In this document: one piece after another, positions 5,571 to 42,085 of the stretch | Layout: each line of letters starts with the position of its first letter | Numbering within the stretch: the first letter of the stretch is position 1 | From: Bacteroidales bacterium | Lineage (GTDB): Bacteria; Bacteroidota; Bacteroidia; Bacteroidales; GWF2-38-335 | DNA length: 47,997 bases | Direction: 5' to 3' | NCBI GenBank assembly: GCA_016936815.1 | Contig: JAFGXD010000099.1 | Location: forward strand, 1-47,997 | The notes under the pieces: generated by a model | The model's database searches: none | The model's input: the letters and a program-made list of their open reading frames with translations, nothing else | Told to the model about the DNA's origin: nothing | Position numbers and translations under genes: made by a program

Positions 5571-7034
5571 ATGAAAAAACAAATAATTTTTCTTGCTTTT
5601 CTTGTTATAATTTTAAAATCGTTTTCTCAATCGCCTTGTAAAGAAGTTATTGGCTATTATCCAAACTGGCAGTGGTACGACAGGGCAAAGTTGGTAAATC
5701 CACAAAGCATTGATTACGAAAAATATACGATAATTAATTATGCTTTTTTTAGTCCGCAGCCCGATGGTTCCATAATTTCTACCGATACATGGGCAGATGA
5801 AAATCTTCTTCTTGGGAATATTATCTGGTATCCCGAAGAGAGTCATGATTCAACAAGTTCAATTATTTATCTGGCACATAATGCAGGTTGTAAAATTCTT
5901 CCTTCAATTGGGGGATGGACACTTTCTGACAATTTTCCTCAAATTGCCGCAGATCCGGGAAAAAGAGAGGTCTTTATTAATAGTTGCATTTCACTAATTA
6001 CTACCTATAATTTCGATGGAATTGATATTGATTGGGAATATCCGGGGTTTGCCGAGCATTCGGGAACTCCTGCCGATAAAGTAAATTTTACAATTTTAAT
6101 GCAGGAATTGAAAACAGCATTGGATAATCACGAAATTATTGCTGAAAAGGAGCTAATTCTTACTGCTTGTTTTAGTGCCGATCCACTGAAAATGCAAAAT
6201 GTTGAATATAATAATCTTATCGACATTATTGATATGTTTAATATGATGACTTATGATTTTTCCGGTACTTATGATGCTGTTGCAAACCACAATTCTCCCT
6301 TGTTTCAGCCGGCAATTGGGGAAGCGGATTGGAATCTGGACCGAACATTTTACAATTTGACCGAAATCTATGGAGTTCCTGCCAACAAAATTAACCTTGG
6401 AGTAGCCTTTTATGGCAAATCGATGACGAATTGTTCCGGGCTATTTCAAACACATTCTGGATTGGCAAATACAGTTTTGTTTGCCGCAGATGAAGGAACT
6501 CCTCTGTATTATAATGTACTCTTGAATATTAACGAGTTTCAATACAATTGGGACGATCAGGCTAAAGTTCCTTACTTAACAAATGGACCGGATAATACCT
6601 TTGTAACCTACGACAACGAAGAATCAGTTAGATTAAAAGGTGAATTTATTGCCGAAAATAGTGCAGGGGGAGCAATAATTTGGGAAATTACAGGCGATTA
6701 TATAGAAAGCTTTTCGGGTTCGGGAATAATTGCAGGAACCCCACTTGTTGATGCATTAATTCAAGGTCTTTGTAACGAAACTGAAACAGAGTTTCTTTTA
6801 AATCAAGTAAATGAATCATATTTGCAACCGATTAATAATAAGAATTTTGTTGTTAACAGTAAAACTAAAAACACATACCTTACTATTTATGATTTAACAG
6901 GAACATTGGTCTTTTCTGAGATAGTAAATTCGGAAAAAAAATTGATTAATCTAAGTTTTTTGAACAATGGGATTTACTTATACCAATTTTTTTCTGAAAA
7001 TGAAAATTCAGGTGGGAAAATTTACATTTTCTAA
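5571..7034 (+). CDS. Secreted GH18 chitinase with T9SS type A sorting domain
   Basis: 487 residues. A signal peptide (MKKQIIFLAFLVIILKSFSQ) is followed by a GH18 TIM barrel from ~residue 24 (KEVIGYYPNWQWY). It carries the SxGG strand PSIGGW (111-116) and the catalytic DxxDxDxE motif as DGIDIDWE (149-156), where E156 is the expected acid/base. Later barrel motifs MMTYDFSG and GVAFYGKSM are present, and GGAIIWEITGD gives the substrate-binding Trp near the end of the barrel. The last ~75 residues look like a T9SS type A sorting domain (YLTIYDLTGTLVFSE, then LNNGIYLYQFF), so it is probably exported across the outer membrane. Known GH18 activity is hydrolysis of beta-1,4-GlcNAc polymers; chitin as substrate is inferred. 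There is no separate chitin-binding module. The gene stands alone between divergent trkA and a convergent peptidase. Confidence 0.9.
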   Translation: MKKQIIFLAFLVIILKSFSQSPCKEVIGYYPNWQWYDRAKLVNPQSIDYEKYTIINYAFFSPQPDGSIISTDTWADENLLLGNIIWYPEESHDSTSSIIYLAHNAGCKILPSIGGWTLSDNFPQIAADPGKREVFINSCISLITTYNFDGIDIDWEYPGFAEHSGTPADKVNFTILMQELKTALDNHEIIAEKELILTACFSADPLKMQNVEYNNLIDIIDMFNMMTYDFSGTYDAVANHNSPLFQPAIGEADWNLDRTFYNLTEIYGVPANKINLGVAFYGKSMTNCSGLFQTHSGLANTVLFAADEGTPLYYNVLLNINEFQYNWDDQAKVPYLTNGPDNTFVTYDNEESVRLKGEFIAENSAGGAIIWEITGDYIESFSGSGIIAGTPLVDALIQGLCNETETEFLLNQVNESYLQPINNKNFVVNSKTKNTYLTIYDLTGTLVFSEIVNSEKKLINLSFLNNGIYLYQFFSENENSGGKIYIF

Positions 7035-28417: not shown

Positions 28418-30532
28418 ATGAGAAAAACTTTCCTTTCCTTTATTGCAGCAGTTTTCTTAACATTTGCTGCAAATTCTCAGGTAACTTTAACTACTGCTGT
28501 TGATTTTACTTGTAACGATATCGATGGTAATGAAGTACACCTTTTTGAGCTGCTCGACAACGGCAAATATGTCGTTCTGGAGTTTTTTACCTCTTGGTGA
28601 ACCACCTGCCCTGCTGTCGCAACGACAACAAATGAAGCTTATGTATATTTCGGTTGTAACAACGGAGATGTCATATTTATCGGCGTTAACGAAGATGTGG
28701 ACGACGCCGCATGTGAAGCCTGGGATTTAGCCAATGGGGTAGAATACACCACCATTAGCGGAACTTCCGGAGGAGCAGCAATTCATGCAGATTATGGAGT
28801 TAGTGCATACCCAACAATGTGCCTTATTGCCCCCGACCATTCAATTGTGGAACAAGATATTTGGCCTATTTCTACCGTTTCTGATATTATTACACCTCTC
28901 GAAAGTTACGGACTAACAGAAACATCTTGCGCCGTTGCTTTCGAAGCAAATTTCTCGGGAACTCCAACTACCGTGCCCGAGGGTGGATCTGTAAATTTCA
29001 CTGACCTAACAACGGGAGGACCAACAACTTGGTCTTGGACTTTTGATGGAGGAACTCCCGGAACTTCAACAGACCAAAACCCTTTAGGAATAGTTTACAA
29101 TACTGCCGGAACTTATACTGTTAGTTTGGAAGTTTCCAACGGAACAAGTACCGACACAGAAACCAAAACTGCCTACATAACAGTGGAACCTTCAACTTAC
29201 ACTGCGCCAATTGCCGATTTTACAGGTAATCCAACTACTTTGGTTGCCGGAAACTCAGTTGATTTTACCGACCTGTCCCTAAACAGCCCAACTACATGGC
29301 TTTGGGAATTTACAGGAGCAGATGTTACTACTTCTGCTGTGCAAAATCCCTCCGGAATTGTTTATAGCAGTCCCGGTGAATTTCCAGTAAAACTAGTTGT
29401 AACAAACCCTGCCGGTGAAGATTCTCTAACAAAAATTGAATACATTAAAGTAATTCTGGATACAAGCTCCTTGGCTCCTTCAATTGATTTTGAAGCCTCG
29501 GAAAGACTAATCTCATCAGGCGAATCAATTGATTTCACAGATTTATCTGCTAATTACCCTATTAGCTGGTCATGGACTTTTTCCGGTGGAACCCCCAATT
29601 CATCAACAGACCAGAATCCTACCAACATAACTTATTCTATTCCGGGAATTTATTCGGTTACTCTAAGTGCTACAAATGTTTCCGGCACAGGAACTCTTAC
29701 AAAAACAGACTATATTGTTGTTACAGATTTTCCTACTGCTGAAATATGCGACACCCTTACCAATATGTTTTCCGGAGAGGCTATGGTAATACAATCTCTT
29801 ACCTCAACTTGGGGTTACTTGCCCGGCCACAACGGCAAATTTGTAACTGCTTATGCCGACAGATACGAAAACTACATGATTTCCGAAGTTAGCGGATTGC
29901 TTTACCCCGTAAAAAAAGCTTATGCTGGCGGTGGAAAAGTAACTTTTACTGTCTGGGACGAGGAAGACGGAAAACCAAATAATGTTCTTGGCTCTAAACA
30001 AGTTTACATTTCTTCAATTGGAGAAAACCTTGTAAATATCGTAAATTTTAGCAGCCCTATTCCGGTTAATCGCATCTTCTACATTGGTTATCAATTAAAT
30101 TACTCAACACCCGATACCCTTGTTATTACTATGGCTCCAAACCGCGGAACTTCAGGAACAAACACTCTGTTTTGCAAAAAAGACGGCAACTGGCAAACTG
30201 CTACAAGCCTTTTCGATGTAAATACATCCTCTGCAATGAGGGTTTTAGGATGCATTACCGATATTCAAATTATTGATTATAACGAAAATCAAATTCTAAT
30301 TTATCCGAATCCCGGAAATGGACTTTTTACTATCGATCTTGGAAATCTTTCTTCTGCTAATATTTCAATCGAAACTTACGATGTTTCGGGCAGAAAGATC
30401 AATTCATCATTAGATAAACAAATGTCCGGCTTATATCAAATTAATCTGGAAAATGCTGCATCGGGACTTTATTTTTTAAGCTTTAACATTGACGGACAAA
30501 CATTTACAAAAAGAGTCTCTGTTGCTAAATAA
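28418..30532 (+). CDS. Secreted thioredoxin-fold/PKD/T9SS protein with in-frame UGA at the first CxxC position (candidate selenoprotein or nonsense mutant)
   Basis: The frame runs 704 codons if UGA at 28598-28600 (codon 61) is read through. Signal peptide: MRKTFLSFIAAVFLTFAANS. A thioredoxin/TlpA-type fold follows: VDFTCNDIDGNEVHLFELL, YVVLEFFTSW, then UGA, TTCPAV, and later VSAYPTMCLIAPDHSIVEQ with the cis-Pro loop YPT. The UGA sits exactly where the first active-site Cys belongs, giving U61-T-T-C64. Three PKD domains follow (WSWTFDGGTPG, WLWEFTGADV, WSWTFSGGTPNSS), then a beta-rich domain (~365-610) and a T9SS type A tail (IYPNPGNG, YDVSGRK, ASGLYFLSFN). No other stop or frameshift occurs. 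A start at 28697 would lose the signal peptide and active site. Selenocysteine insertion, a Cys-to-stop mutation and a sequence error are all possible; no selenocysteine genes are in the window. Confidence 0.7.
28613..28629 (+). promoter_or_regulatory. Weak SECIS-like hairpin after the in-frame UGA
   Basis: TGTCG (28615-28619) pairs with CGACA (28623-28627) around a CAA loop. A C-A mismatch and one more G-C pair (28613/28629) lie below. The loop is about 20 bases after the UGA, the right distance for a bacterial SECIS, but the stem is short and the tight loop lacks a G unless the closing pair opens. Confidence 0.25.
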
Positions 30533-34211: not shown

Positions 34212-34440
34212 TAAGAATTTTGATTTTAATCAGATTTTTTCATATCTTGCTCAAAATTTTTTTGTAGTTAATAAAATAAAAATAATAACTTATTAAAACT
34301 TTTTAAAAATATATTCGTAACAGGCTCAAGTGATTAATTCACTTATTAACTAATATCTGTTAATAAAATTTGTTGGAAAAGAATTTTTTTACTTACTTTA
34401 CGTTTTTGTATTGTATAACATATATGTTTTAAACAAAAAT

Positions 34441-35385
34441 ATGAAAAAAACATTTGCTATTCTACTTCTGATTACTGCCGGCTACTGGGCTAATGCACAG
34501 CAAGATCCGCAGTATAGCCTTAACTCATTTAACAACGCTGCAATTAATCCCGGTTATGCCGGAAGCAACGAAATGATTTGCGCCAAAGCCCTCATGAGAC
34601 AACAATGGATGGGCTTCGAAAACGCCCCAAAAACTACTGTTTTTAACATCAACGCTCCTATTGAACCGGGAGGAGTTAAATCAGGTGTTGGACTTACTAT
34701 TATAAGCGATCAGCTTGGATTTGAAAGCAATCTGCACATTAAAGGCGCTTACGCCTACAGAATGGAACTTGGCGATGGTATGTTAGGTATAGGTCTTGGT
34801 TTAGGACTTATTAATAAGTCAATCGACGGTGATTGGGCTTCCCCTGCATCAATTCAATCAGGTGGAAACGTATTTACCGACCCAAGTATTCCTCACATGG
34901 ACAGCAGAATGACTTTCGATATGGATTTTGGAGCATACTACGTTACGGATGAATATTTCGCAGGTCTTTCAACAACTCATATAACAAAATCTACTCTAAA
35001 AGTTGATGACAAACAATCAATTTTTAATGCCAGACATTATTATATAGCTGCAGGATATCATTATCAGCTACCTAACCCACTTCTTATGTTTAGCCCGTCT
35101 TTATTGATGAAAACCGATGGTGCCACAACCCAATTTAATATTAATGCATTACTAACATACAATAAAAAGTTTTCCGGAGGCGTTGCTTATAGTGTAGGCG
35201 ATGCAATAACACCCATGATTGTTGGAAGATTCGGCGATGTTCAGTTTGCACTAGCTTACGATATAGGATTATCTGACATAGCAAAATATAATAACGGCTC
35301 TCTTGAAATAATGGTAGGTTACTGTTTCACCATCACAAAAGATACAAAGACCGGAAGATATAAAAGCGTTAGATTCTTAAATTAA
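34441..35385 (+). CDS. Type IX secretion system PorP/SprF family outer-membrane protein
   Basis: 314 residues from the ATG at 34441, giving signal peptide MKKTFAILLLITAGYWANAQ; an ATG at 34411 adds MYNIYVLNKN in front and was not used. Family hallmarks follow: QDPQYSLNSFNNAAINPGYA, MRQQWMGFENAPKT, GVGLTIISDQLGF and a barrel of about 14 strands ending in LEIMVGYCFTI. PorP/SprF proteins are outer-membrane barrels tied to the T9SS, either in the core or in attaching SprB-like adhesins. Its place directly before gldK favours a core role. The spacing of 39 bases to gldK suggests co-transcription. Confidence 0.9.
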   Translation: MKKTFAILLLITAGYWANAQQDPQYSLNSFNNAAINPGYAGSNEMICAKALMRQQWMGFENAPKTTVFNINAPIEPGGVKSGVGLTIISDQLGFESNLHIKGAYAYRMELGDGMLGIGLGLGLINKSIDGDWASPASIQSGGNVFTDPSIPHMDSRMTFDMDFGAYYVTDEYFAGLSTTHITKSTLKVDDKQSIFNARHYYIAAGYHYQLPNPLLMFSPSLLMKTDGATTQFNINALLTYNKKFSGGVAYSVGDAITPMIVGRFGDVQFALAYDIGLSDIAKYNNGSLEIMVGYCFTITKDTKTGRYKSVRFLN

Positions 35386-35424
35386 TTTGTTATTCTTGCA
35401 AAGCAATATAAAAATGACGGAATT

Positions 35425-37056
35425 ATGAAAAAGTTAATTTTTCCAAGTGTTGTCATAGCTCTTATGCTGGTAATTACCGGATGTCCCCCGGCAGGTAATG
35501 GTGAGCTAACCGGAGTTATGAATCGTGAAATCTGGTATGAACCGGATCCTTATGGAATGCTTTTCATCCCTATGGGAAGCTACAACATGGGGCCAAACGA
35601 TCAAGATGTTCCATGGGCAATGACTGCTCAGTCCAAAACCGTTTCTATTCAGGCTTTCTGGATGGACGAAACCGAGATAACCAATAACGAATACCGACAA
35701 TTCTGTTATTGGGTTAGAGATTCCCTTGCATACAAAATTCTTGCAGGAAAAGATGGTAACGGTAATGTTCCTGCCAACAAAAGAGATAGAAGCTACCTGA
35801 AAATTTTAGGTGCTGATGACGATATTTGGTATGAGCCCGATGAAATGTCAGATTTGGATGAACAACTAATTACAAGTAATCCTTTTATTAATTGGAGAAC
35901 TGAAATTGATTGGAAAGTTAAAGATGCTCAGAATGAACTCGAACGTGCTGGTTTCTATTACCCTCCTCACGAAAGATATTACAGAAGAAAAGAATTCGAT
36001 GTAAGAAAATGGAATTTTGAATACTATTGGATTGATCTTCAACAAGCTGCTAAGAAATTCTACTACACTGATAAAGACCAAAATGGACTCGCAATTGAGA
36101 AAACTCGTACTTACCACCACTTCGATATTAACGTTAAAGAAGATAATAACGGTGAGAAAAAAATTCAATTCCGGGACTTTAAATCAGGTCAGTTTAAAGA
36201 ACTTAATCAACAACAAGTTACTATTAACGGCGATTTCGAAGAATATGGAGGAATTGTTGATAACGACCCTGTAAAGTATTTTAACGAAAGAGGTGAAAAG
36301 GTTAATGTTAGAAGTCGTGCCTCTTTTATTATGAAAGACGTTATTAACGTTTACCCCGATACTCTTTGCTGGGTTAGAGATTTCTCATACTCTTATAATG
36401 AACCAATGACTAAAATGTACTTCTGGCATCCTGCTTACGATCATTATCCTGTAGTTGGGGTTAGTTGGAAACAAGCCAGAGCATTTAGTATTTGGAGAAC
36501 ACAATTACTAAACGGTTTTTTGGCTGAAGGTGGACAAACTTTTGTTCAGGATTTCAGACTTCCAACAGAATCTGAATGGGAATACGCTTCCAGAGGTGGT
36601 CTAGATCTTTCTATGTACCCTTGGGGAGGTTATTATACAAGAAATTATACCGGTTGTTTTATTGCCAACTTTAAACCTCTAAGAGGAGATTATCGTGCAG
36701 ACGGAGGTTTCCATACTGTAATTGTTGCATCCTTCGATCCTAACGATTATGGACTTTACGATATGGCAGGTAACGTTGCAGAATGGACTAGAAATGCTTT
36801 TGATGAATCAGCTTATAGTTTTACCGATGACTTAAACCCTGATTACTTCTATGAAGCAAGAGAAGAAGACCATTGGCAGAAAAAGAGAAAGGTGCTTAGA
36901 GGAGGATCCTGGAAAGACATAGGTTATTACATGCAATGTGGTACTCGTACTTATGAATATCAGGACACTGCAAAATCTTTTATTGGATTTAGAAATGTGA
37001 GAACATATCTGGGTCGTGATAAAAACGATGATGTAAGCCGTTCTCAGGTATATTAA
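35425..37056 (+). CDS. gldK: T9SS/gliding lipoprotein GldK (PorK)
   Basis: 543 residues. The lipoprotein signal ends MLVITGC, with Cys20 as lipidation site. The body is an FGE-sulfatase (formylglycine-generating enzyme-like) fold: FIPMGSYNMGPNDQD, WMDETEITNNEYRQF, VGVSWKQARAFSIWR, FRLPTESEWEYASRGG, YDMAGNVAEWTRNA and VLRGGSWKD. In T9SS, GldK/PorK pairs with GldN/PorN in periplasmic rings attached under the outer membrane, so the enzyme fold is used structurally. A long polar insert lies between ~residues 110 and 330 (including YFNERGEKVNVRSR). It is the first gene of the gldKLMN block, 50 bases before gldL. Confidence 0.95.
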   Translation: MKKLIFPSVVIALMLVITGCPPAGNGELTGVMNREIWYEPDPYGMLFIPMGSYNMGPNDQDVPWAMTAQSKTVSIQAFWMDETEITNNEYRQFCYWVRDSLAYKILAGKDGNGNVPANKRDRSYLKILGADDDIWYEPDEMSDLDEQLITSNPFINWRTEIDWKVKDAQNELERAGFYYPPHERYYRRKEFDVRKWNFEYYWIDLQQAAKKFYYTDKDQNGLAIEKTRTYHHFDINVKEDNNGEKKIQFRDFKSGQFKELNQQQVTINGDFEEYGGIVDNDPVKYFNERGEKVNVRSRASFIMKDVINVYPDTLCWVRDFSYSYNEPMTKMYFWHPAYDHYPVVGVSWKQARAFSIWRTQLLNGFLAEGGQTFVQDFRLPTESEWEYASRGGLDLSMYPWGGYYTRNYTGCFIANFKPLRGDYRADGGFHTVIVASFDPNDYGLYDMAGNVAEWTRNAFDESAYSFTDDLNPDYFYEAREEDHWQKKRKVLRGGSWKDIGYYMQCGTRTYEYQDTAKSFIGFRNVRTYLGRDKNDDVSRSQVY

Positions 37057-37106
37057 TTTTGAACCATCTTAACCATTTATAAACATTAATTAAAAATTCG
37101 TGCGCT

Positions 37107-38171
37107 ATGAACTTAACCGAAATTGTTGAATCCAAAGGTTACAAAGCTTTTATGTCAAAGCTCTACGGAATTGGAGCTTCCGTAGTTATTGTTGGAGCTC
37201 TTTTTAAAATCATGCACTGGCCATTTGCAAGTGAAATGCTTATTGCCGGTCTTGGAACCGAAGCACTTATCTTCTTCGCTTCTGCTTTCGAGCCACCACA
37301 CGAACAAGTTGACTGGAGTTTAGTTTATCCTGAACTTGCAGGCTTATCAGACGACGATGAACAAGCTCTTCACGAAGACCCAAAATTGTCTCAGAAAAAA
37401 TCTGCTCTAGAAAAATTCGATGAAATGATTAATGAAGCTCAAATATCACCGGAGCTATTTCAAAAGCTTGGTTCGGGCTTACATAATCTAAACGAAACTA
37501 CTTCAAAATTGTCAGACCTTTCTGATGCTTCTTTAGTTACTAACGACTACGTTAAAAACGTAAAACAAGCTTCAGATTCTATGGCTTCTTTTAGTACTTC
37601 TTACGGAAATTCAATTGATTCTTTAAATCAATCTGCCGGAACTCTTTCTGAATCTTATATTAAGACTTCTGAAATTATTGACCGTTCAGGACAAGAATTC
37701 TCCGGTACTTTTAAAGAATCTTATTTACAGTCAACAGAGGCTATTAAGACTTCTGCTCAGGCTTTTGCTGAAAATATTGCTTCAGGAGGCTTAGAAATTA
37801 ACAATACTGTAAAACGTTCTGCTTCAGAACTTGCAGAAACTTACGAGAAACTTACTGCTTCAATGAATGAAGAATTTACTAAATCAACTGAAGGAAATAA
37901 AACTTACGGTGAACAACTTGATATTATGGGTAAAAATCTTACTGCCCTTAATGCTGTTTACGAAATTCAGTTGCAGAATTCTAACGAACATCTTGATGCT
38001 TCAAAAGAACTTTACAGCGGTCTTCACGAAATGATGACAAGCTTTAAAGATTCTGCTAACGATGCTAAAGTTTACAGAGAAGAGGTTTCTAAATTAGGTA
38101 AAAACCTGATGGCATTAAATACCATTTATGGCAATATGCTTTCAGCTATGACAATTAAGTCTAACGATTAA
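37107..38171 (+). CDS. gldL: T9SS/gliding motor protein GldL (PorL), long form
   Basis: 354 residues. Two inner-membrane helices lie near the N-terminus: LYGIGASVVIVGALFKIMHW (19-38) and MLIAGLGTEALIFFASAF (44-61). Charged residues in or next to them, K34, H37, E52 and E62, match the pattern of functionally important residues described in flavobacterial GldL. With GldM it forms the proton-driven rotary motor that powers T9SS and gliding. The C-terminal ~270 residues are Ser/Thr/Glu-rich with coiled-coil character, including repeated SYIKTSEIIDRSGQEFSGTF-like segments. It is longer than the Flavobacterium johnsoniae protein as I recall it (about 215). gldM starts 15 bases downstream. Confidence 0.94.
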   Translation: MNLTEIVESKGYKAFMSKLYGIGASVVIVGALFKIMHWPFASEMLIAGLGTEALIFFASAFEPPHEQVDWSLVYPELAGLSDDDEQALHEDPKLSQKKSALEKFDEMINEAQISPELFQKLGSGLHNLNETTSKLSDLSDASLVTNDYVKNVKQASDSMASFSTSYGNSIDSLNQSAGTLSESYIKTSEIIDRSGQEFSGTFKESYLQSTEAIKTSAQAFAENIASGGLEINNTVKRSASELAETYEKLTASMNEEFTKSTEGNKTYGEQLDIMGKNLTALNAVYEIQLQNSNEHLDASKELYSGLHEMMTSFKDSANDAKVYREEVSKLGKNLMALNTIYGNMLSAMTIKSND

Positions 38172-38185
38172 TTTGCATTTAAACT

Positions 38186-39814
38186 ATGAGTGCAGCGAAT
38201 TGTCCCGAAACCCCGCGGCAGAGAATGATTTCTATGATGTACTTGGTGCTAACTGCTCTGTTGGCACTAAACGTCTCGAAAGAAATTCTCGATGCCTTTG
38301 TTATAGTAAACGACGGTCTTACTGCAACAACTGAAAACTTCAATAAGAAAAATCAGGCCACCTACGATGAATTTAATAAGCAATACGAACTAAGTAAGGA
38401 AAAGGTAGGTCCATGGAAAGATAAAGCTTTTAAGGTAAAAGAAGAAGCCGATAAACTATTTAACCGTTTTGAAGAATTAAAATATGAAATTCTTACAACT
38501 GCCGGTGAAGATGAAGCTATGAAAGAAGAGGATGGCAGAAAATTTATTGACGGCATGGCTATTGGCAAGAAAGATAATGCCGATGTTCCTGCTCAGATAA
38601 TGATTACTGCCGGAAAAGGTAAAGAGCTTATGGAAATGATGAAAGGTTTTAGAGAATTCCTTGTTGGCATGGTAAAAGAAGACGGTGGAGATCAGGTTCT
38701 AATTAATGGTATAGAACAATTCCTAAACACCGATGAACACAAAGACCTTAAAACCGGTGAGGTTCACCCCTGGGAATCCTATCACTTTGAACACCTTCCT
38801 TTGATGGCAGTTCTAACAATTATGTCCAAAATGCAAGGGGACGTTAGAAATGCCGAAGCTAATACAATCAATTTCCTAATGTCTAAAATTAGTGGAGAAG
38901 ATATTCCTTTTAACGCTATTAAGCCTATGGTTTATGCAGAGGCTAACGATATTGTTTCAGGTGGAGATTATAAAGCAGAAATTTTTATTGCTGCCTACGA
39001 CTCTACAGCAAAACCTAAAGTATGGATTGGTGCTTACGACAGTGTTACTCATGATGTAAAGGAAGGCGAAGGATTTTGGTTATCAGACTCATCAATTGTT
39101 GATGGTAAAGGAATTTATCACCTAAAGAGTCCAAGTGTTGGACAGTATAACTACAAAGGATTTATTCGTTTATCGACTCCAAAAGGTAATCTAAATTACG
39201 ACTTTAAAGCCGGTTACCGTATTGTACCTCCAAGTGCTACAGTTTCTGCAACCAAAATGAACGTATTATATATTGGTGTTGATAATCCTATTAAGGTGTC
39301 TGCACCGGGTGTACAAGCCGATCAGGTTAACGCTACTTTAGCAGGAAATGGATCCTTAACTCCAAGAGGTAATGGTGAATATATTGCCCGAGTTAGAGGT
39401 GGAACAACATGTAAAATTAATGTTTCTGCAACAATAGATGGCAGGGCTACTTCAATGGGTAGTATGGACTTTCGTATTAAGAAAATTCCAAATCCTACCG
39501 GCGGTGCTGTTGGACAAACTTCCGGAGGAAGGGCTCCTATGAATGCATTTAGACCTGGTGCTTTTGTTTTTGCTCGTAACGATCCGAACTTCGAATTTGA
39601 AGCTAACTTTAATGTAACCAGATTTCAGGTAAGAGTTGATGACAAAGGAAATACTATTACTAAACCTGCAAATGGAAACAAAATTACTGCAGAACAATTT
39701 GCTGCTATTCAAAAACTAAGACCTGGGGGAACAGTAGTTTTCGAAAAAATTGTTGCTGTTGGTCCGGATGGTGATCCAAGGAATTTACCACCGGTTGTTA
39801 TTACAATACAATAA
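38186..39814 (+). CDS. gldM: T9SS/gliding motor protein GldM (PorM)
   Basis: 542 residues, typical length. The N-terminus has the conserved NCPETPRQRMISMMYLVLTA and a single inner-membrane helix (MISMMYLVLTALLALNVSKE, ~14-33). A large periplasmic region then runs as helical and Ig-like domains to the outer-membrane ring. Seen in it: WESYHFEHLPLMAVLTIMSK, the domain start IKPMVYAEANDIVSGGDYKA and the C-terminal VGPDGDPRNLPPVVITIQ. GldM dimers sit in the GldL pentamer and transmit rotation to GldK/GldN. A strong hairpin lies immediately after the stop. Confidence 0.96.
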   Translation: MSAANCPETPRQRMISMMYLVLTALLALNVSKEILDAFVIVNDGLTATTENFNKKNQATYDEFNKQYELSKEKVGPWKDKAFKVKEEADKLFNRFEELKYEILTTAGEDEAMKEEDGRKFIDGMAIGKKDNADVPAQIMITAGKGKELMEMMKGFREFLVGMVKEDGGDQVLINGIEQFLNTDEHKDLKTGEVHPWESYHFEHLPLMAVLTIMSKMQGDVRNAEANTINFLMSKISGEDIPFNAIKPMVYAEANDIVSGGDYKAEIFIAAYDSTAKPKVWIGAYDSVTHDVKEGEGFWLSDSSIVDGKGIYHLKSPSVGQYNYKGFIRLSTPKGNLNYDFKAGYRIVPPSATVSATKMNVLYIGVDNPIKVSAPGVQADQVNATLAGNGSLTPRGNGEYIARVRGGTTCKINVSATIDGRATSMGSMDFRIKKIPNPTGGAVGQTSGGRAPMNAFRPGAFVFARNDPNFEFEANFNVTRFQVRVDDKGNTITKPANGNKITAEQFAAIQKLRPGGTVVFEKIVAVGPDGDPRNLPPVVITIQ

Positions 39815-39822
39815 AAAAAACT

Positions 39823-39852
39823 TGCGAACCATCTTTGTATGGTTCGCATTTT
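39823..39852 (+). terminator. Hairpin between gldM and gldN (terminator or attenuator)
   Basis: TGCGAACCAT (39823-39832) pairs perfectly with ATGGTTCGCA (39839-39848) around a 6-base loop, with an A-run before and TTTT after. It begins nine bases after the gldM stop and ends about 30 bases before gldN. The short T-run suggests partial termination or mRNA-end protection. Confidence 0.65.
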
Positions 39853-39881
39853 AAAATATGTTTTATTAATACTATATTCTT

Positions 39882-40928
39882 ATGAAGAAAGTAATTATTT
39901 TATCGATCTGCCTTGTTTTTGTTGTTACTGCCTTTGCTCAGGATGCCGATATTCTTGGTGGCCTTTATAAGAAAAGTCATGTTCCTGCCAGAGAAGATAT
40001 TAAATATCACTCTTTTAGGGAAGCTGATGCTATGTGGACAAAAATTGTCTGGAGAAAGCTTGATTTACGGGAGAAAATTAATCACCCTTTGTATTTTCCT
40101 CAGATAAGTGCCTTCAGTATTGAAGAGGTGTTTGAACCAAGAGACGACAGGTACAATATTACAACACTTCTTCTTTATAAGTATATTGGTACAAATGCTC
40201 TAAATGCCGTTAATTACTTTAAAAACAGATGGCCTGATATTTATAGTGGCGATCCAAAAATTATTAGATTGGTGCACATTTTGGAAAGAGAAATTGATAA
40301 TGTAAGTAAAGATATCTCTCCTGCCGGCGACAGCAAAAATCTTGATGATTATCTGAAGTACATGGTTTTTGAAGATCACGAATTTAGAAAACCTAAGTAT
40401 TTTATGGACATGTATAAGGGTGCAGGAGGATATAAGGACTCTATTTTACAAACTGACCAATATGGAAACCCAATTATTACTCAGTTTGGTACTTATGCTT
40501 ACAGCGAACCTTTCTATACAGGAGTTAGACCCGATTCAATTACTGAACTTCTAATGAAAGAAATATGGTATTTTGACAAAAACAGAGGAAAAATGGAGGT
40601 TAGGATTGTTTCTATTTGCCCAAGAAGAGTTGTTTGGGATCCTCAGGGAAATGCATATTCAGGTACTGAGGTTGGTTGGTTCTATTTCCCTGCGATTAGG
40701 CCTACTTTAGCTAGCCATGAGGTTTTTAACACTAGCAACGATGCAGAAAGAAGAACTTTTGATGATATTTTCTGGAAGAGACATTTCTCCAGTTTTGTTT
40801 ACGCAGAAACAAACGTTTTTGATAACAGAATGATTCGCGAATATAAAGCAGGTTTAGATGCCCTGCTCGAAGCTGAAAGGGTAAAAGACTGGATGTTTAA
40901 AATTGAGCACGATATTTGGAACTATTAA
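39882..40928 (+). CDS. gldN: T9SS/gliding protein GldN (PorN), first copy
   Basis: 348 residues with signal peptide MKKVIILSICLVFVVTAFAQ. Family motifs: WTKIVWRKLDLREKINHPLY, DRYNITTLLLYKYI, FEDHEFRKPKY, KEIWYFDKNRGKMEVRIVSI, GWFYFPAIRPTLASHEVFN, RTFDDIFWKR and the C-terminal IREYKAGLDALLEAERVKDW. GldN/PorN is the periplasmic partner of GldK in the outer-membrane ring. It stands between two hairpins, so its level may differ from that of gldM and of the second copy that follows. Confidence 0.95.
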   Translation: MKKVIILSICLVFVVTAFAQDADILGGLYKKSHVPAREDIKYHSFREADAMWTKIVWRKLDLREKINHPLYFPQISAFSIEEVFEPRDDRYNITTLLLYKYIGTNALNAVNYFKNRWPDIYSGDPKIIRLVHILEREIDNVSKDISPAGDSKNLDDYLKYMVFEDHEFRKPKYFMDMYKGAGGYKDSILQTDQYGNPIITQFGTYAYSEPFYTGVRPDSITELLMKEIWYFDKNRGKMEVRIVSICPRRVVWDPQGNAYSGTEVGWFYFPAIRPTLASHEVFNTSNDAERRTFDDIFWKRHFSSFVYAETNVFDNRMIREYKAGLDALLEAERVKDWMFKIEHDIWNY

Positions 40929-40940
40929 AATAACAATATT

Positions 40941-40966
40941 AACCCTGGTAAATCCGGGGTTTTTTG
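40941..40966 (+). terminator. Intrinsic terminator after first gldN
   Basis: AACCCTGG (40941-40948) pairs with CCGGGGTT (40954-40961), with one G-U pair, around a TAAAT loop. A T-run follows. It begins 13 bases after the gldN stop. Confidence 0.7.
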
Positions 40967-41029
40967 TTTCTATATAATAAGACCGGCATATTTATCGTTT
41001 AGTAATTAGAACCAAGAAAATCTTATTCC

Positions 41030-42085
41030 ATGAAACAACTAATGATGCTAAATCTGGTTGTTTTTGTTGCTTGCTCCGCCCACTCTCAAAACACTCTAAG
41101 TCCTGTCTCGGAACCTTTGGCCGAACGAAAAGCCATAAGCTCTGAAACCGATTTTATGCCTTACCCAAAAATAAGACAAGCAGACATTATGTGGTCAAAA
41201 ATTGTGTGGCAAAAAATAGACCTTAGAGAAAAAATTAATCAACCCCTCTATTACCCAATAGAGAATTATTACGACCCCGAAAATTATCTAATTCCTTCCG
41301 ACAACAGGTTCAATATTACTGCATTGTTAATTTTCGAATATTTAGGCGAAAAAGGCAATGTTGATTTAATAACTAAAAAATATCCTGCAGATTATCCAAA
41401 TTCGAACGGAATAGCCAAAATCCAACATATTCTTGATGTAGAAAAGGAATTAATGGCTTGTGGGAACAGTTTTCAATGCATAAATAATAACTCAGCAAGT
41501 TCAAAAACTCAATTAAACTATTATGTGTATGAAGACCACGAGTTTAAGAAACCAAAAAGCCTTAGTCAAATTTGGGATGATTTAGGAGGAGGAATGGATT
41601 CAACAGTAAAAATAAATCAATATGGTGAGGAAGAGTTCGATGCACATGGTAGGGCCATTTATGATTATTACCGAAAATCTATTCGTCTTGATGAGGTTGT
41701 TGAACTTCAAATTAAGGAAATATGGTATTTCGATAAAAACCGAGGGAAAATGGAGGTTAGGATAGCGGGAATCTGTCCGGTACGAAAGTATTTTGATGAA
41801 CTAACACAAAAAAATATTAGAATTGAGATAGGTTGGTTTTATTTTCCGGCAGTAAGGAAAACACTTGCCACTCATGAAGTTTTTAATTTTGTAAACCAAA
41901 ACGAAAGAAAATCCTTTGATGATATTTTTGTGAAAAGATTTTTCACATCAATTATTTATGCAGAGTCTAATGTTTACGACAACCGAGAAATCAGGGAGTA
42001 CAAAATGGGTCAGGATGCTCTTGAAGAATCTGAAAGAATAAAAAAATGGATTTTCGAATTTGAACACGATTTGTGGGAATACTAA
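41030..42085 (+). CDS. Second GldN-like protein (gldN paralogue)
   Basis: 351 residues with signal peptide MKQLMMLNLVVFVACSAHSQ. It aligns with the first GldN over its length: WSKIVWQKIDLREKINQPLY, DNRFNITALLIFEYLGEKG, YEDHEFKKPKS, KEIWYFDKNRGKMEVRIAGI, GWFYFPAVRKTLATHEVFN, SFDDIFVKRFF and IREYKMGQDALEESERIKKW. The middle (~residues 120-215) is the most different and has an extra Cys pair (MACGNSFQC). Tandem gldN duplication is also known in F. johnsoniae (gldN/gldO). A terminator separates it from the first copy, so it may need read-through or its own promoter, which I could not identify. Its stop overlaps that of the opposing gene. Confidence 0.92.
   Translation: MKQLMMLNLVVFVACSAHSQNTLSPVSEPLAERKAISSETDFMPYPKIRQADIMWSKIVWQKIDLREKINQPLYYPIENYYDPENYLIPSDNRFNITALLIFEYLGEKGNVDLITKKYPADYPNSNGIAKIQHILDVEKELMACGNSFQCINNNSASSKTQLNYYVYEDHEFKKPKSLSQIWDDLGGGMDSTVKINQYGEEEFDAHGRAIYDYYRKSIRLDEVVELQIKEIWYFDKNRGKMEVRIAGICPVRKYFDELTQKNIRIEIGWFYFPAVRKTLATHEVFNFVNQNERKSFDDIFVKRFFTSIIYAESNVYDNREIREYKMGQDALEESERIKKWIFEFEHDLWEY

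Follow-up and report, generated by a model that had tools for sequence, protein, structure and literature searches.

Comparison of related genes across an order of bacteria leads us to predict, with strong confidence, that the gene at positions 28418–30532 of the window (the whole 47,997-nucleotide stretch of Bacteroidales DNA analyzed here) encodes an exported selenoprotein, a reading in which selenium incorporation, export by the type IX secretion system (T9SS) and redox function are inferred. Judged from sequence, the gene is very probably unbroken and its product a genuine exported selenoprotein, because related genes throughout the order keep the same UGA codon in genomes that carry the machinery for selenocysteine (Sec). 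The predicted features of the gene are as follows.

28418–30532, + strand: predicted selenoprotein coding sequence of 704 codons, Sec at codon 61, stop codon TAA (frame translation; a homologue of equal length, 704 aa, is found in sister genome G001)
28418–28480, + strand: putative signal peptide, residues 1–21 (MRKTFLSFIAAVFLTFAANSQ), assigned from the sequence by eye, with a similar leader in most homologues
28493–28849, + strand: AhpC/TSA (thioredoxin-like) domain, residues 26–144 (PF00578, 47.0 bits; nearest structures, ResA-type oxidoreductases)
28598–28600, + strand: in-frame UGA, read as Sec, at the first position of UxxC (same column in 28 of 28 listed TGA homologues)
28612–28630, + strand: putative bacterial SECIS stem-loop, core stem 28615–28619 paired with 28623–28627 (z of −1.8 to −2.4; covariation; family structure peak)
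28811–28813, + strand: codon of the cis-Pro, P132 (column invariant among aligned homologues)
28946–29761, + strand: three PKD domains, limits approximate (PF00801 and PF18911, three stretches each)
30299–30520, + strand: T9SS type A C-terminal sorting domain, residues 628–701 of 704 (TIGR04183, 43.5 bits; PF18962, 51.7 bits)

Translation of the window reveals exactly one internal stop in this frame, as the sequence-only reading had claimed: a TGA at codon 61 in the context FFTSW-U-TTC-P, which falls on the first Cys position of the CxxC motif of the AhpC/TSA-thioredoxin domain and gives a predicted motif of UTTC. The parts of the protein that the same reading had described as intact are also borne out, with a hydrophobic stretch ending FAANSQ at the N-terminus (judged by eye), a cis-Pro loop whose P132 is invariant, three PKD stretches that together score 102.2 bits (Pfam), and the sorting tail. 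Besides this frame, the window contains one other single-TGA run of at least 200 codons, which is 207 codons long and antisense to an ORF. TGA is a genuine terminator in three of the 28 window ORFs checked, so the code is not reassigned as a whole. A standard-code ORF finder places the start of the gene at an internal GTG and reports a protein of 611 aa from which the active site is lost, and comparable proteins are therefore probably miscalled in many genomes.

The UGA is conserved far beyond the window. We searched 393 genomes of the order with an alignment of the thioredoxin domain, keeping only the best matches, so that all counts are lower bounds, and find homologues with one in-frame TGA in at least 28 genes from at least 20 genomes. 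The in-domain TGAs listed (28 of 28) fall in a single profile column, that of the first Cys of CxxC, and the same column holds TGT or TGC, and thus Cys, in 23 other listed homologues; alignment at codon 61, which had been proposed as a check, therefore returns UGA or Cys in other species. TAA or TAG is the terminator of all 28 listed UGA genes. When the read-through protein was used to search relatives, three sister-species genes matched with one TGA each, at 57–69% identity, and one-TGA matches also appeared in three other families. The window's own genome encodes a second UGA homologue (G000:C184:11115-11528; L141:404-1147, − strand), a protein of 247 aa with the motif FFAYY-U-VSC, no other stops and a weak T9SS-like tail.

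Named records with the UGA form include Bacteroidetes bacterium GWF2_38_335, a metagenome-assembled genome (MAG) labelled Marinifilum and other Bacteroidales; homologues labelled Flavobacteriales, Chitinophaga(ceae) and Crocinitomicaceae have the Cys form. Outside Bacteroidota, TGA takes the place of the first CxxC cysteine in each of two thioredoxin-like domains of a MAG labelled Fibrobacteres (L171, CAIOZP010000094.1). One genome (G028:C69, L076) has a tandem pair of the family, one member with Cys (ECLVC) and the other with UGA (GUGTC), and some proteins have a second thioredoxin-like domain that has lost its CxxC cysteines, e.g., GDSYSE (L113, L120 and L123, from G348, G200 and G285). One match with TAA, in G338, was dropped, as it has an ordinary Cys motif, WCGPC.

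These data bear on the simplest alternative, that the TGA arose from faulty base calling or assembly, or from a chance TGC/TGT-to-TGA nonsense mutation in a Cys-containing thioredoxin-like gene. One changed base at the Cys codon would suffice, and the assembly is fragmented; yet the same codon is TGA in every UGA gene counted above, including three in the sister species and the additional one in the window's own genome, and the sequences of the genus differ from the window at 30–35% of domain residues, which rules out copies of a single error. The conserved TGA column refutes error or nonsense mutation as a general explanation, and we assign it a negligible probability.

Conservation of the UGA is accompanied by Sec machinery. 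We find selA above the cut-off in 43 of the 393 genomes of the order, and to that extent the earlier view of selenoproteins as rare in Bacteroidota should be revised. The gene is concentrated where the UGA form occurs, in 17 of the 20 listed UGA genomes vs. 26 of the 373 others (Fisher p = 1.6 × 10^−15, kinship ignored), and ARAGORN identifies tRNA-SeC(tca) in 18 of the same 20; the two assemblies without it are the window's own and one that is 76% complete. Among the 60 nearest genomes, the seven with selA are the same seven in which ARAGORN reports tRNA-SeC(tca). Other RF01852 matches in these 60 genomes, where examined with ARAGORN, are tRNA-Ser.

Physical linkage is also observed. The UGA gene adjoins tRNA-Sec, selA and selB in G032 and adjoins tRNA-Sec in G145, and it shares a contig with selA in G198, G157, G264 and G346, at a distance of ~4.5 to 10.5 kb; selB is present in the sel loci examined. 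For G145, an assembly that is 97% complete, the search for selA was negative, and the first 14 kb of its contig C83 likewise lack the gene (L184 / L224). As a separate observation, the selD gene of G053 (G053:C154:2143-3060, L199) contains one in-frame TGA, and SelD of this genome is probably itself a selenoprotein.

Bacterial SECIS elements lie just where we observe a peak of RNA structure in these genes (PMC1088965). In a scan of the family, segments of 30–39 nt gave little signal and segments of 48 nt gave a signal, while sliding segments of 45 nt located the peak, which starts +3 to +9 nt after the codon and is found in UGA genes only (mean z of −1.56 vs. +0.19 for Cys genes, p = 5 × 10^−6). 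The difference between UGA and Cys genes fades by 15 nt after the codon with the 45-nt sliding segment; a weaker difference appears at the far upstream edge, at −57 (p = 0.006), with nothing comparable elsewhere. Within the genus, three of the five core pairs of the 5-bp stem show compensatory changes, and this covariation is lost in a shifted register, although only four sequences are available, and for one of them a different fold is predicted. The hairpin of the window sequence itself is modest, at −5.1 kcal/mol and the z-scores listed above, and its predicted apical loop is CAA, only 3 nt long when the closing G-C pair is made; for the loop to include a G, the top G-C pair has to open. The expectation of a SECIS hairpin directly 3' of the UGA is met by the family-wide peak and the covarying genus stem, with the element itself best described as putative.

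Could the UGA be decoded in another way, either through simple readthrough or by a suppressor tRNA for Cys or Trp? A suppressor of the Cys type is likewise compatible with the exchange of Cys and UGA in the conserved column, but nearly all listed UGA genomes have tRNA-SeC(tca) and selA, with selB in the sel loci examined, and the sole tRNA-Cys among the RF01852 matches of the window's own genome has the anticodon GCA. Hairpin structure that follows the codon in UGA genes only, and the continued use of TGA to end genes, further disfavor decoding as anything but Sec, and we consider such decoding highly improbable.

Evidence against the Sec reading comes from the window's own genome. No selA, selB or tRNA-Sec was found in its assembly of 192 contigs, which is 95.5% complete, while selD is present (355 bits); a search for the sel genes, suggested at the outset as a check, thus succeeds for selD alone in this assembly and recovers the complete set in the sister species. 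The RF01852 matches of the genome that ARAGORN reads are tRNA-Ser, -Leu, -Cys, -Tyr, -Thr and -His, so these are rejected as tRNA-Sec, and its TIGR00475 matches, considered as SelB, all fall below the cut-off and look like ordinary translation GTPases. Nor can selD serve as proof of Sec, since the 2-selenouridine synthase MnmH/SelU is present in this genome and also needs SelD.

The location of selD suggests where the missing genes may be. In the sister species the order of the locus is tRNA-Sec, selA, selB, a cysteine desulfurase gene (csd), a yedF-like gene and selD, and contig C189 of the window's genome (6.5 kb) carries csd, yedF and selD in this same order; only 15 bases of contig remain upstream of the csd ORF, the flank on which the sister has selB and selA. 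The three genes are 52–56% identical to those of the sister (52% for csd), whereas the csd found beside selD in selA-negative genomes is only 27–37% identical to the sister-species gene; the csd-yedF-selD order was not seen in selA-negative genomes within flanks of 1.5 kb. Because the contig ends beside the place that selA, selB and tRNA-Sec occupy in the sister genome, an assembly gap is the likely cause of their absence, an inference that does not exclude true loss. The absence of selA, selB and selC, which the sequence-only reading had named as a result that would refute it, is thus met on the present assembly, but that assembly breaks at their expected place.

A recent loss must accordingly be weighed, in which the lineage used Sec and the window's species has since lost selA, selB and selC, leaving a young pseudogene that is translated only as far as codon 60. 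It would account directly for the genes not found, and selD could persist for the MnmH/SelU that is present. The contig break beside the missing genes speaks against it, as do the lack of any further stop or frameshift in 704 codons, the second UGA gene of the same genome, likewise without other stops, and the end branch of the window gene in a tree of the domain, which at 0.13 is the shortest in its clade. We judge recent loss to be very unlikely.

Sequence constraint agrees with a gene that is translated past the UGA. Identity to the equal-length sister homologue in the thioredoxin domain is 67% before the UGA and 68% after it, and codons 62–704 of the same pair give a dN of 0.38 and a dS of 2.2, the latter near saturation. 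With dN far below dS after the UGA and a conserved gene free of other stops, the earlier claim that this is not a decaying pseudogene is supported; homologues that accumulate additional stops would have counted against it, and the UGA form is conserved without them. The domain tree requires six changes between Sec and Cys, two of which are forced by well-supported branches, and groups the four genus sequences, all UGA, in a fully supported clade. A tree-based test of independent pairs has only two supported pairs and is too small to decide.

The domain that houses the UGA matches PF00578 above its cut-off of 26 bits and PF08534 at 33.9 bits, and the solved structures nearest to it are ResA-type thiol-disulfide oxidoreductases. 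A Sec/Cys pair together with a cis-Pro in a thioredoxin-like domain predicts thiol-disulfide exchange, although the activity is inferred. The PKD repeats, of a type often found in surface proteins, probably serve for spacing or binding. The C-terminal tail exceeds the cut-offs of both TIGR04183 (23 bits) and PF18962 (27 bits), and TIGR04183 is above cut-off in nine of ten further UGA homologues tested as well; the exception is the C184 homologue of the window's own genome, at 20.1 bits. T9SS core genes lie ~4 kb downstream of the UGA gene in the same window (34411–42085).

34411–35385, + strand: PorP/SprF family T9SS membrane protein, in the neighboring cluster presumed to provide the export route (TIGR03519, 220 bits)
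35425–37056, + strand: T9SS protein PorK/GldK (TIGR03525, 546 bits)
37107–38171, + strand: T9SS motor protein PorL/GldL (TIGR03513, 227 bits)
38186–39814, + strand: T9SS motor protein PorM/GldM (TIGR03517, 353 bits)
39882–40928, + strand: T9SS protein PorN/GldN, copy 1 (TIGR03523, 150 bits)
41030–42085, + strand: T9SS protein PorN/GldN, copy 2 (TIGR03523, 178 bits)

The sorting tail and these core genes make the window protein very probably a T9SS cargo and lend support to the route first proposed for it, with export predicted and not shown by experiment. Sec might still be incorporated into a protein that is not T9SS cargo, one that stays in the periplasm or reaches the surface by another route: there is no export experiment, and at least one homologue, that of C184, has a weak tail. 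This is unlikely in view of the type A tail of the window protein, the tails of the other UGA proteins tested, and the PorP, GldK, GldL, GldM and GldN genes encoded in the same window. Two other features of the window are recorded here, the tandem arrangement of two GldN/PorN genes downstream of gldKLM and, at 5571–7034, a glycosyl-hydrolase gene that resembles chitinase D (116 bits, below the model cut-off of 750).

Sec in a redoxin domain is already known; as far as could be checked, the exported architecture and the spread in Bacteroidales are new. A 2026 inventory of 119 prokaryotic selenoprotein families includes the Prx-like thiol:disulfide oxidoreductases (PF00578, UxxC) and Redoxin (PF08534, UxxC), which have the same domain and the same UxxC as the window protein, and names no family with PKD repeats or a T9SS tail (PMC13188914). 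The window protein meets the sequence criterion for membership in the Prx-like PF00578 UxxC group (47.0 bits vs. a cut-off of 26; UTTC), but its domain is only the N-terminal part of a 704-residue protein that continues into PKD repeats and a T9SS tail. The Cys-containing ResA/TlpA-type oxidoreductases provide both the closest structures and the closest NCBIfam redox model and have CxxC and cis-Pro in common with it; the window protein differs in having Sec for the first Cys and a T9SS cargo architecture, and at 35.8 bits it does not reach the cut-off of the ResA subfamily model (170).

The ResA-like selenoprotein with a WAxxUGC motif (NF041054) likewise places Sec in a ResA-like domain, but its motif is UGC and that of the window family UxxC; the sister protein scores 18.2 bits against a cut-off of 300, and the window protein gives no match at an E-value of 0.001. 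The TonB-dependent receptor selenoprotein (FCYXU type, NF049945) is by name also a cell-envelope selenoprotein, of a different protein family and route, although we know it from the family list only. No dedicated model for the UGA protein was found in NCBIfam release 20.0, and no T9SS-cargo selenoprotein in the full-text literature, a search that did not extend to subscription papers or NCBI protein records; the sole paper that the full-text search found with both "selenocysteine" and "type IX secretion" uses the terms for different organisms.

In the mechanism that we propose, Sec-tRNA(Sec) would be brought by SelB to the SECIS hairpin ~15 nt after the UGA, and codon 61 would be decoded as Sec, creating a U-T-T-C redox center in the AhpC/TSA-thioredoxin domain. 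The signal peptide would then direct the protein to the periplasm, and the type A sorting domain would direct it through the T9SS to the cell surface or the medium, where the selenol/thiol pair, now outside the cell, may act as a thiol-disulfide oxidoreductase, with the PKD repeats providing spacing or binding.

A survey in 2006 found no Sec decoding among Bacteroidetes (PMC1794560); against this stand, within one order, selA in 43 of 393 sampled genomes and a selenoprotein that recurs there with the build of a T9SS cargo. We think it likely, if less firmly than for the window gene alone, that uncultured Bacteroidales and some of their neighbors have a family of selenoenzymes that the T9SS carries to the cell surface or secretes, with some species encoding several of them. 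Their Sec would be incorporated in the cytoplasm, withstand passage through two membranes and be active outside the cell, and these proteins would be the first T9SS cargo to contain Sec. If export occurs as predicted, the role of an extracellular selenol redox center, and the identity of its reductant there, become testable questions.
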